DNA of 64,000 nt from assembly GCA_025351345.1 (NCBI GenBank), contig JANXWB010000080.1:62001-126000 (forward strand), written 5' to 3'. The notes under the pieces were generated by a model. It saw nothing but the letters and a program-made list of their open reading frames with translations. It was not told the DNA's origin and did not search any database. Shown in pieces: positions 13,277-16,975 of this stretch; position 1 is the stretch's first letter, and the number at the start of each line of letters is the position of its first letter. The position numbers were made by a program, and so were the translations under genes. The DNA is from Synechococcales cyanobacterium GL140_1_metabat_312 (GTDB lineage: Bacteria > Cyanobacteriota > Cyanobacteriia > Leptolyngbyales > Leptolyngbyaceae).

Positions 13277-13516
13277 ATGATGCTGAATATTTTAGAAACG
13301 ATTCGGGCTAACATTACATTGGGTGAGGAGAGTGGATATGTCGCTGAATGTCGAGATATTGCGATCGTGACTCAAGGTCGAACATTAGACGAGGTGACGT
13401 TAAATTTACGCTCTGCTGTGGCGCTTTACTTTGAAGGGGAGAATCCGCATGAGTTGGGATTTGTGGAAAAGCCTTCTTTGATGATTACGATCGAGTTGCA
13501 GCCTGTGTATGCCTAA
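13277..13516 (+). CDS. hicB: HicB-family antitoxin
   Basis: A 79-residue HicB-like protein with the small alpha/beta fold: SGYVAECRDIAIVTQGRTLDE, then LNLRSAVALYFEG. It is expected to neutralise the HicA toxin encoded next to it. AGAGGAG immediately upstream is a strong ribosome binding site; the second Met codon (13280) is equally possible. It overlaps hicA by 8 bp, the usual translational coupling. The order is antitoxin first, the reverse of classical hicAB but common in cyanobacteria. Confidence 0.82.
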   Translation: MMLNILETIRANITLGEESGYVAECRDIAIVTQGRTLDEVTLNLRSAVALYFEGENPHELGFVEKPSLMITIELQPVYA

Positions 13517-13754
13517 GTTGAAACAATTATCTGGGGAGGATGTCGTTGGTATTTTGAAATCATTTGGCTTTCAAGTGCAGAGTCAAAAGGGAAGTCATAT
13601 CAAACTAAGACGAACGATCGATGGTCAAAAAGAGACGTTAATTATCCCAGATCACAGTCGATTAGATACTGGAACTTGTCGGGGGATTCTTCGACAGTCA
13701 TCCCAATATATTCCAGAAGAAGAGCTTTGTGAGTTCTTTTATAATGAACAATAG
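13509..13754 (+). CDS. hicA: HicA-family mRNA interferase toxin
   Basis: An 81-residue YcfA/HicA toxin with a double-stranded-RNA-binding-like fold. It has the diagnostic GSHIKLRR with the catalytic His, and IPDHSRLDTGTCRGILRQ at the C-terminal helix. It cleaves mRNA when not bound by HicB. The length is at the upper end for the family because of an acidic tail. Both genes look intact. Confidence 0.85.
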   Translation: MPKLKQLSGEDVVGILKSFGFQVQSQKGSHIKLRRTIDGQKETLIIPDHSRLDTGTCRGILRQSSQYIPEEELCEFFYNEQ

Positions 13755-13900
13755 CAACATATGATCGATCGCACCGACATTAAAAGATCGATCGTCCTTT
13801 AAATTCTATCGCTTGGGCCTCTTCCCTGGAAAGTCTATCGCACCCATGGTCAGCGGTTGGGATGCTACCATCGATGTATTACACGTCAGGGAGAAATGCA

Positions 13901-14131
13901 ATGGAGCTGCGTCAAGACCTTCTAAATTTTATCAGTCAGTTCTCTGACGAACAGTTAGCGTTGCTGATGCCATTGGTTCTTTCATTTCGAGAGAATCATT
14001 CGATGGTCTCTGACCGACCGGAGGTCATCGAGTCTTTTACCAGTGAAGCTTCCACCTCTTACCAATTTTGGGTTGGCGCGGAAAATGATGTTTATGATGA
14101 GTTATTCGTAGATGAATTGGCAACGCGGTGA
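13901..14131 (+). CDS. Probable antitoxin partner of the PemK/MazF-type toxin
   Basis: A 76-residue protein read from ATG 13901, which has AGGGAG 7 nt upstream; the frame is open back to 13862, but that start has no ribosome binding site. It begins MELRQDLLNFISQFSDEQL, a helical segment, and ends in an acidic tail. I do not recognise the family. The antitoxin role is inferred from position: it precedes and overlaps the toxin gene by 20 bp. Confidence 0.6.
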   Translation: MELRQDLLNFISQFSDEQLALLMPLVLSFRENHSMVSDRPEVIESFTSEASTSYQFWVGAENDVYDELFVDELATR

Positions 14132-14465
14132 TGTGGTTCTATGTCGAGTTCCTATGCCTTCGACGCAGCTTCAGCAATTTAAAGTTCGTCCGGCTGTGGT
14201 TGTTTCAGCAGATTTTCTCAACCGAGCCTCGGATGATGTCATGGTTGTTCCTTGTACATCTAATACAAGCCGTCCGATCGCTATCACTCAGTATCTGATT
14301 ACGGGTGATGAAACGGTGGCTGTTGGGATTCGGGTGGATTCAATCGTTCGATGTGAGTCTATTTTTACGTTGAATCAGTCAATGGTTTTACGCAGGTTGG
14401 GAAAATTGAGTACGGAAACGATCGATCGGATTAACAATTGTTTGGTTGCAGCGTTGTCACTTTGA
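14112..14465 (+). CDS. PemK/MazF-family endoribonuclease toxin
   Basis: A 117-residue toxin with the MazF/PemK hallmarks RGDVVLCRVP near the N-terminus, KVRPAVVVSADF, VVPCTSN and the C-terminal VRCESIFTLNQSMV. Members of the family cleave single-stranded RNA at short motifs. The start overlaps the end of the preceding small gene, as expected for a two-gene module. A palindromic repeat begins 49 bp after the stop. Confidence 0.82.
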   Translation: MNWQRGDVVLCRVPMPSTQLQQFKVRPAVVVSADFLNRASDDVMVVPCTSNTSRPIAITQYLITGDETVAVGIRVDSIVRCESIFTLNQSMVLRRLGKLSTETIDRINNCLVAALSL

Positions 14466-14513: not shown

Positions 14514-14622
14514 GATCCCCCTAAATCCCCCTTGTGAAGGGGGACTATGAGTTTGATTTCAATTCCCAATCTCATTCCACTTCCCATTCATGTTCCCCCT
14601 TTACAAGGGGGCTAGGGGGATC
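14514..14622. repeat. Palindromic GATCCCCCTA...TAGGGGGATC element
   Basis: A 109-bp element with perfect 10-bp terminal inverted repeats. Each half carries its own hairpin: CCCCCTTGTGAAGGGGG on the left, and CCCCCTTTACAAGGGGG on the right (7-bp stem, 3-nt loop). It has the same layout as the copy at 6711-6824. No coding capacity: it is MITE-like or REP-like. It abuts the stop codon of the caspase-FGE gene. Confidence 0.8.
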
Positions 14623-14626
14623 GAGG

Positions 14627-16528
14627 CTAAGAAAGTCCTCGCGGAGACAGGCAGACAACACGAAAACCCAGGTGGTCGTCCTGGTTCGCCGGATCGAAGT
14701 TGCACCGATAGGCAGAGCGACAATAGCCAGGGTTGAAGTCCCACGAACCGCCACGTACGAGCCGGAGTTTAGATCCGGAATCATTAGAGGCATCCCAAAC
14801 GCGATCGTCGCTCGGTGCATCGCCGTAATTTGAATGCCAAGGATCAAGACACCATTCCCAAACATTTCCATGCATGTTGTACAGTCCAAAGGCATTTGGA
14901 TCAAAGGAATCTACTGCGATCGTGGTCGCCCGATATTCTCCTTTTGATGCTTTCCCGTAGGTATAGTCACCATCAAAATTCGCCAAATCAGTCGTAATCG
15001 TCTCGCCAAAGTGAAACGGAGTCGTTGTTCCTGCACGACAAGCATATTCCCATTGCGCTTCTGTGGGTAGGTCATAAGTCTTTCCAGTTTTCTCAGATAA
15101 TCGGGAAAGCCGATCGAAAAACTCTTTTGCTTCATGCCAAGAAATCGTCTCAACAGGCAAATTAGCACCTTTGAAGTTTGAAGGCTCGGGATTTAGCTCG
15201 ATATTGACCTGATCCAAACTTGCAATCTTTTTCCATTGCGCTTGTGTGACCGCAAATTTTCCCATCCAAAACTCTTTGACATTTACCTCATGTTGCGGAA
15301 ACTCATCATCTGATGCCTCTTGCTCTTTGCTTCCCAGAAAGCCCTTTTTTGCCGCACCCATCTTGAAACTACCGCCGGGAATCTTCACCATATCCAGCGT
15401 AACCCCATCACCCCAATCCTCTTTAAAGTAAGTCGCACTTCCAGGTTTACGCCCAATTTCCTTACCTGTGACATCGACAGTCACAACCTCAAAGGCAAAC
15501 GTTGGAAGTTTTGGTTTTGGTGGTTCTGGCGTGGGAGTGGAAGTCGATCGGGCTGTGGCAGGACGATCGGTTGAAACTTCTATTAAAGGTTTTTGCGATC
15601 GATAAGTGTTTTTCTTCCCTAAAACTCTCGCATAGGCTTGCAGTGCCCTCAAATCTTGTCCTTGTGTCGCCGCAATCACCCGAATCCAAAGCTGTTCAGC
15701 GATCTCCAGCGTCTCCTCCAACTCCGCTTCTTGGGCCTCACTTCTGAGCAAAGCAACATCTTGATCCGTCGCAAACTCAGGCAACAAAATCAAATACGAC
15801 TTTTGCCTAGGCTCCACATAGGTCGCAGGAACTTGCTCCGGCTTTTGATGCTGCTTACAAATTTGCGGAACCCGGCGTTGCAAATACAAATCCAACCGTT
15901 CCACCGTCGCACAATTACGTTCTCCCGGCATTTGCAACGCTTCAAGCAATGCCGCAGTAAAAGCACCCTGTTCCAACGCCTCAATTTCATACGCTTTTCG
16001 ATTGCGCTGACAAGAAAAAATCGTAATCGCTCCCGGTTGCACATCCCCAATCCCCACACCATCCGCCCGATCGCCCTCCGTCCGACAAGCATCCAAAAGC
16101 AAAATCACATTATCCGCCCCCGACTTCAGCAACCTCTCCCGCACAAAGTTTACCGAAATCGCCCGCTTCTCATGATCCGCCAATCGTGGATTGTAATCTA
16201 TTGGCAACAAATAATCACAATCATCAATCCGTTTTCCATGTCCCGCAAAAAAGAACCAACAGTTATCACCCGGAGCCAGTGGAGGCACTTTTGTAGAGAA
16301 CCGATCGTGCAAAAAATCGACCAAATCACTAGATGTTGGATCAGTCGAATTCTGTTCCGACGATGATGGCAAAGTGATTCCATCAGCAAACCAAAAGACC
16401 CGATCGAACTTCGCTTTCACAAAGAAATTATGCATGGCTTCCGCATCCCGATTGGCATACTCAAGCCTGCCTATATTTTTATAAGCATTCACCCCCACCA
16501 CGATCGCCCAATTCTTCGCCTTCGTCAT
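14627..16528 (-). CDS. Caspase-like protease fused to an FGE-sulfatase (C-type-lectin fold) domain
   Basis: A 633-residue fusion. The N-terminal peptidase C14 (metacaspase/orthocaspase) domain has its catalytic dyad at H97 (FFFAGHGKR) and C148 (LLLDACRTE). A helical linker and a Pro-rich stretch (TPTPEPPKPKLP, about 331-342) lead to a formylglycine-generating-enzyme-like domain from about 378, with PGGSFKMG, LPTEAQWEYACRAG and NMHGNVWEW. The C-terminus (from R592) reads RGGSWDFNPGYCRSAYR and GFRVV, the layout of variable regions in cyanobacterial retroelement targets. The likely role is a signal-activated protease whose lectin-like domain senses a ligand; true FGE activity is unlikely. It follows a Pepco-like gene by 60 bp on the same strand. 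Confidence 0.88.
   Translation of the reverse strand: MTKAKNWAIVVGVNAYKNIGRLEYANRDAEAMHNFFVKAKFDRVFWFADGITLPSSSEQNSTDPTSSDLVDFLHDRFSTKVPPLAPGDNCWFFFAGHGKRIDDCDYLLPIDYNPRLADHEKRAISVNFVRERLLKSGADNVILLLDACRTEGDRADGVGIGDVQPGAITIFSCQRNRKAYEIEALEQGAFTAALLEALQMPGERNCATVERLDLYLQRRVPQICKQHQKPEQVPATYVEPRQKSYLILLPEFATDQDVALLRSEAQEAELEETLEIAEQLWIRVIAATQGQDLRALQAYARVLGKKNTYRSQKPLIEVSTDRPATARSTSTPTPEPPKPKLPTFAFEVVTVDVTGKEIGRKPGSATYFKEDWGDGVTLDMVKIPGGSFKMGAAKKGFLGSKEQEASDDEFPQHEVNVKEFWMGKFAVTQAQWKKIASLDQVNIELNPEPSNFKGANLPVETISWHEAKEFFDRLSRLSEKTGKTYDLPTEAQWEYACRAGTTTPFHFGETITTDLANFDGDYTYGKASKGEYRATTIAVDSFDPNAFGLYNMHGNVWEWCLDPWHSNYGDAPSDDRVWDASNDSGSKLRLVRGGSWDFNPGYCRSAYRCNFDPANQDDHLGFRVVCLSPRGLS
14638..14755 (-). 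other. Candidate retroelement variable region at the 3' end of the caspase-FGE gene
   Basis: From R592 onward, ten codons at positions known to vary in this family all have the form NNC: GAC, TTC, AAC (597-599); TGC, AAC, TTC (609-611); AAC (615); GAC, GAC, CAC (617-619). That is what adenine-specific mutagenesis of AAC template codons produces. The rest of the domain uses mixed third bases. No reverse transcriptase or template repeat is in this window, so a donor would have to lie elsewhere. Confidence 0.5.
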
Positions 16529-16588: not shown

Positions 16589-16975
16589 TTAGGGCTTTTT
16601 AACTTTAAACTTCAACGTCATCGCCCCCTTCATTCCTGCCTTTCCCCCGGAACCCAACAAACTCAACTGGCCCTCCCCATTCACCTCCACCTGAATCTCA
16701 ATCTCATTCAATTCCAGCCCCGTCAACTCCCCCGTTTGTGCCGTCGTTTGTTGAAGCACCTTCCCAATCACACTCACAAAATCCACCATCCCCTGTTGCA
16801 GCTTCTCCGCCGATACCGCAACTCCACGCCTCACCCACTTCACAGGCTGCGAATCCACAGAATCATAGGGATTACATTTAGCATTAGCATCCCGACCACC
16901 AATCACCTCCTCAGCCTCAACCACATCGTCTGTGACAATCCAAACTACATCACTACTCATAACCGCCTCATTCAT
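16589..16975 (-). CDS. Pepco-like peptidase-coupled protein
   Basis: A 128-residue protein with a short N-terminal strand (DVVWIVTDD), a helix (SAEKLQQGMVDFVSVIGKVLQ) and a C-terminal beta region, NEIEIQVEVNGEGQLSLLG followed by a Gly/Lys-rich loop. This matches my recollection of the Pepco (peptidase-co-occurring) domain, found beside caspase-like proteases in NTP-dependent conflict systems. It is transcribed directly ahead of the caspase gene. The likely role is an adaptor or regulator of the protease. MSSDVVW, six codons in, is an alternative start. The family call is from memory of the pattern. Confidence 0.65.
   Translation of the reverse strand: MNEAVMSSDVVWIVTDDVVEAEEVIGGRDANAKCNPYDSVDSQPVKWVRRGVAVSAEKLQQGMVDFVSVIGKVLQQTTAQTGELTGLELNEIEIQVEVNGEGQLSLLGSGGKAGMKGAMTLKFKVKKP

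Follow-up and report, generated by a model that had tools for sequence, protein, structure and literature searches.

A caspase-FGE gene of a cyanobacterium with a variable region of diversity-generating retroelement type, probably orphaned from its writer

Does the C-terminus of a caspase-like cyanobacterial protein carry the variable region (VR) of a diversity-generating retroelement (DGR) and, if so, is that region still being rewritten? The question is raised by the 3' end of one gene in a stretch of 64,000 nucleotides (here called the window) from Synechococcales cyanobacterium GL140_1_metabat_312, in which a sequence-only reading had seen the layout and codon signature of a DGR target acted on from a distance. 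On the evidence set out below, we consider it probable that the window VR is a formerly remote DGR target that is now orphaned, its writer having decayed and its tip having been frozen.

The window genome (G000) is a draft in 100 contigs. It was compared with three sister genomes (G001, G002, and G003), with a one-contig genome of the same family (G015), and with Synechococcales M55_K2018_004 (L155). The coordinates of all features are collected in Table 1.

Table 1. Position and basis of the features discussed, in the window and in other sequences
Feature	Sequence	Position	Strand	Basis
Caspase-FGE gene, 633 aa; N-terminal Peptidase_C14 and C-terminal FGE-sulfatase (C-type-lectin-like)	Window	14627..16528	-	ORF; Pfam PF00656 E 2.7e-21, PF03781 E 1.7e-52
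Caspase domain, residues 6-239; His97 (AGHG), Cys148 (DACR)	Window	15812..16513	-	Pfam PF00656
FGE domain, residues 379-625; kin of PvdO and of the DGR variable protein TvpA	Window	14654..15394	-	PF03781; alignment
3' segment with a history unlike that of the gene body: nearer the G001 homolog (body nearer G002)	Window	14627..14911	-	Windowed base differences
DGR-type VR, RGGSW to GFRVV, codons 592-625; judged probably orphaned in the window genome	Window	14654..14755	-	Codon reading, related templates, ortholog comparisons, no cognate template
Variable codons 597-599 (GAC TTC AAC)	Window	14732..14740	-	AAY/ATC positions of related templates
Variable codons 609-611 (TGC AAC TTC)	Window	14696..14704	-	Related templates and codon reading
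Variable codon 615 (AAC)	Window	14684..14686	-	Related templates and codon reading
Variable codons 617-619 (GAC GAC CAC)	Window	14672..14680	-	Related templates and codon reading
Pepco gene, 128 aa, immediately upstream of caspase-FGE	Window	16589..16975	-	PF24393 E 1.7e-28
HicA, likely HicB upstream	Window	13509-13754	+	PF07927
PemK/MazF toxin, small ORF ahead	Window	14112-14465	+	PF02452
Sole DGR-type reverse transcriptase (RT) of the window genome	G000, C64	38966-39602		Profile searches of the genome
Decayed DGR locus (L014:7848-15388)	G000, C64	37848-45388
Full-length caspase-FGE ortholog	G015, C1	1505673-1507562
Template of the ortholog VR	G015, C1	4996490
Caspase-FGE gene (L099)	G041, C456	5884-7782

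The gene and its 3' end

Both residues of the caspase dyad are unchanged in an alignment of 12 homologs, and the protein combines Peptidase_C14 with the His-Cys pair of an orthocaspase. The active site of a formylglycine-generating enzyme (FGE) uses a pair of cysteines close to the C-terminus. When the window protein is aligned with solved FGEs, the first of these is found to be Phe598 and Cys603 alone is retained; because one of the two active-site cysteines is lost, the domain is unlikely to be a working enzyme. An AlphaFold model of the protein, built from 12 sequences, is poor in its FGE half (pLDDT about 30). The pairing with Pepco is conserved in G001, G015, and M55_K2018_004, the neighbors in G001 and G015 having been identified by eye from sequence similarity.

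The RGGSW...GFRVV layout that had been described for the last 42 codons was recovered on the minus-strand ORF, where codons 592-633 read RGGSWDFNPGYCRSAYRCNFDPANQDDHLGFRVVCLSPRGLS. The VR occupies codons 592-625 of 633, inside PF03781 and at the 3' end of a C-type-lectin/FGE gene, which is where a DGR target protein should carry it. The ten codons singled out earlier are indeed all NNC, at sites that are AAY in the templates of related genomes, and third bases are mixed elsewhere in the gene, as had also been claimed (T 200, G 196, A 125, and C 69 before codon 591). We then redefined the variable positions independently, taking those codons at which the DGR templates of related genomes have AAY. 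Ten of these 11 codons end in C, compared with a C share among Y-ending codons of 0.257 in the gene body and 0.333 in the FGE domain (binomial P for the excess, 1.0e-5 and 1.3e-4, respectively).

The composition of the 3' end has a second source. Base differences between the window gene and that of G002 amount to 4-8% up to about codon 520 and to 17-25% thereafter, while those from the G001 homolog fall from 19-36% to 12-14% past codon 560. In addition, BLAST against the window genome itself matched 28 bases a little ahead of the VR to an FGE gene of C64, 27 of the 28 being identical. These comparisons suggest that recombination among paralogs or relatives, added to retrohoming, shaped the 3' end. 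Because this end is a mosaic, C-ending codons begin to rise at about codon 540, ahead of the VR, and the C excess belongs in part to the mosaic segment and not to the VR alone. By itself, the NNC run cannot separate DGR writing from codon bias, and the proof has to come from relatives.

Relatives of the gene as DGR targets

The G015 ortholog has 52% identity to the window protein. Compared over 105 bases with a template on the same contig, its VR has 12 differences, every one at a template adenine, a pattern with a chance probability of about 1e-7. Template and RT lie 3.49 Mb from the ortholog on this single contig, and the RT next to the template has an uninterrupted frame of 382 residues that includes both catalytic motifs. 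By its pattern, the ortholog is a remote (trans) DGR target. In M55_K2018_004, the elements follow one another in cis in the order Pepco, caspase-FGE, bAvd, RT (intact, 364 aa), and template, and 19 of the 19 differences between VR and template are at adenines. Judged by where the differences fall, DGR targeting of the orthologs takes place both in trans and in cis. The claim that the window C-terminus is a DGR variable region holds by descent, its orthologs being diversified remotely in the one genome and in cis in the other. Across the family, a search with the template pattern found DGR templates in G009, G010, G015, G024, G033, and G041.

Within the genus, the variation has the same shape. 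The two FGE genes of a tandem pair in G002 differ in 13 of 14 variable codons, at 11 of 14 first, 10 of 14 second, and 0 of 14 third bases; over their 97 shared body codons, 9 first, 4 second, and 8 third bases differ. Between the window gene and its G001 homolog (66% identity), the 14 variable codons differ at 10 first, 5 second, and 2 third bases, compared with third-base differences in 287 of 576 codons in the body. In the constant codons of the VR, 5 of 63 bases are changed, whereas the body has 551 changes in 1728 bases (P about 1e-5). Variation among homologs is confined to positions 1-2 of AAY-derived codons, as is expected of DGR targets, and since selection on the protein would not fix third bases, DGR writing is the best account of the genus copies. 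From these base patterns, we take the caspase-FGE family to be a true DGR target.

A further copy deserves mention. The caspase-FGE gene of G041 (50% identity to the window protein) has a VR that fits no compared template, even the one in its own draft genome, and may be a second orphan.

The machinery of the window genome and its sisters

Whole-genome searches that covered the window found no RT or template within its 64 kb, as the sequence-only reading had stated. The one DGR-type RT of the genome lies at the C64 locus. Aligned with intact RTs of the family, it has lost about 120 residues internally (roughly 74-195), the motif A Asp (QCDI..YF) among them; the frame changes at the deletion junction, and the C-terminal region is missing as well, while the IGNLTSQ and YVDD motifs are still there. 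The gene is a pseudogene, frameshifted and doubly deleted, and not a functional RT. Absence of a DGR-type RT from the genome had been named beforehand as an argument against the DGR interpretation; with only a pseudogene present, that argument in effect applies to present activity and not to past diversification. A search of the window genome for the accessory gene bAvd gave no match at E <= 1.

The decayed C64 locus retains an intact template after the RT, flanked by two FGE target genes that differ from it at 14 sites each, of which 13 and 12 are adenines. CHAT-iSTAND, MoxR-type AAA, and vWA-CoxE genes complete its gene set.

A cognate template for the window VR was sought with an A-to-any pattern, in which each VR base may be itself or A. 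With as many as 3 mismatches allowed, the gene itself is the sole match in the assembly, and the template differing solely at A, which the earlier reading had proposed as a check, is not among the sequences recovered. BLAST of the VR against its own genome returned the VR and short matches only; the template pattern revealed no window-class template in G000-G003; and the inferred window-class template had no match across 390 genomes of the class. The window VR is accordingly left with no same-genome template identical to it at non-A positions, and its direct parent is a sequence that we infer.

No DGR RT was detected in the three sister genomes, all of which are drafts, and G002 and G003 have no RT match. 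Sequence may be missing, given that G003 has a completeness of 69% and that the G002 contig stops soon after the second VR. The RTs of G001 were considered and dropped as DGR RTs; they are retron-type, with QGAPTSP in place of the DGR IGNLTSQ. Two of the three sisters hold remnants of bAvd only. In G001, the gene is truncated after about 40 aa, and in G002, the first FGE gene of the class opens with 14 residues that resemble the start of bAvd, MNNLPVIQKTYDLI, a likeness seen by eye and missed by the bAvd search. The simplest account of these genomes is that the genus has lost the writer repeatedly and retained the targets. It is possible, although we hold this only tentatively and lean against it, that the loss was lineage-wide and that the genus fixed past hypermutation products as genome-encoded, unchanging sensors of a caspase effector.

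Weighing the explanations, and known systems

The assembly holds a broken RT, the NNC signature, and no matching template. Under the orphaned-target reading, the two-gene Pepco/caspase-FGE unit is probably a sensor-effector of cell suicide or defense, the lectin-like tip of which would have been shaped by mutagenic retrohoming from a template elsewhere in the ancestral genome. The writer would then have decayed in the lineage, with the RT internally deleted and truncated, bAvd lost, and the template of the window VR gone, and the protein would have been retained with its caspase intact and its recognition surface fixed. By analogy with conflict systems (PMC7159879, PMC8195603, PMC10907252), the tip may sense a molecule of an invader as its ligand and trigger the caspase, which would respond by proteolysis. 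Past DGR writing of the window copy, and its freeze in all cells of the species, are what we infer from this combination.

The window VR might instead be a live remote target, still rewritten in trans by an intact RT and cognate template that lie in a gap of the assembly or on a plasmid missing from it, or that sibling cells carry. Trans action is seen by pattern in the G015 ortholog, and in a Thiohalocapsa population intact structural variants occur alongside broken DGR loci (PMC10907252); a second DGR could lie in a gap of the 100-contig draft, or an intact element in other cells of the species. This is nevertheless unlikely given an assembly with a completeness of 99.99% that yields the broken RT alone in profile searches, and given that among the sisters two have bAvd remnants only and 0/3 have a DGR RT. 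Present-day DGR action on the window VR is not supported. Action from a distance, as originally proposed, stands for the G015 ortholog but not for the window copy, in view of its pseudogene RT and the poor fit of the C64 template.

It is very improbable that we are looking at an ordinary FGE C-terminus, marked by C-rich codon usage or positive selection, in which a DGR was never involved. RGGSW and GFRVV are present in non-DGR FGE proteins, a caution of the earlier reading that the FGE alignment bears out, and C-ending codons go up ahead of the VR; but positive selection would not fix third bases (0/14 in the G002 pair, against 21 changes at positions 1-2), and the orthologs agree with their templates at all non-A sites, by which this reading is already refuted for the family. 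Scarcely credible is that the C64 template of the same genome wrote the window VR, which drifted afterwards: the two are 62% identical along 105 bases, which exceeds the 50% remote-target threshold of one study (PMC7517822), but of their 40 differences 14 are at adenines and 26 are not, compared with only 1 and 2 such in the local targets, and the constant codons of the window VR are common to the G001 and G002 homologs instead.

Earlier work has described orthocaspase targets, trans targets, and degenerate DGR loci, to which the window gene, which we read as an orphaned target, adds a further example. Cyanobacterial DGR variable proteins with orthocaspase N-termini, as well as remote variable proteins, were described by Vallota-Eastman et al. 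2020 (PMC7517822). The window protein is like these in its caspase-like N-terminus, C-terminal lectin-fold domain, 3'-end VR, and location away from the DGR, and unlike them in that its genome has no matching template for the VR and a pseudogene RT. Dore et al. 2024 (PMC10907252) described DGR loci of Thiohalocapsa PB-PSB1 that are degenerate and act in trans. Missing or pseudogenized machinery, targets diversified in trans, and VRs lacking a perfect template (some of those in Thiohalocapsa) are common to both cases; however, each class there kept an intact locus and none was found in the window genome, and throughout the genus as sampled here the machinery is either absent or present only as remnants.

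The C64 locus, with its CHAT-iSTAND, MoxR-type AAA, and vWA genes and two FGE targets, resembles the MoxR-vWA/iSTAND ternary conflict systems with DGR of Kaur et al. 2020 (PMC7159879), whereas the window gene belongs to a separate Pepco/caspase-FGE unit outside that locus. A similar gene set is found at the DGR locus of Nostoc punctiforme, which has CHAT, MoxR, and vWA genes and for which adenine-specific variation in culture was reported in 2025. TvpA of Treponema denticola (PDB 2y3c) shares the FGE/C-type-lectin fold, and its RGGSW...GFRLAC end aligns to the window VR, but the sequence of that structure has no caspase domain.

The comparisons confirm a caspase partnered with Pepco as a genuine DGR target, in trans in G015 and in cis in M55_K2018_004. 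The window copy would be a natural case in which the diversifier is dead and the sensor kept, with live counterparts at hand, and a comparison of frozen and live copies would tell whether the cell needs diversity itself or only a selected specificity.

Two observations concern the neighborhood of the gene. Our hairpin comparison found stems of 6-14 bp after many VRs, but also after some template repeats, and the stem in the window lies within a repeat-like element. Hairpin-forming CCCCCTT...AAGGGGG repeats stand past the caspase-FGE stop codon at 14527-14620, with a similar one after the G001 homolog. Adjoining the caspase gene on the plus strand, at 13280-14465, are two pairs of toxin-antitoxin-like genes.
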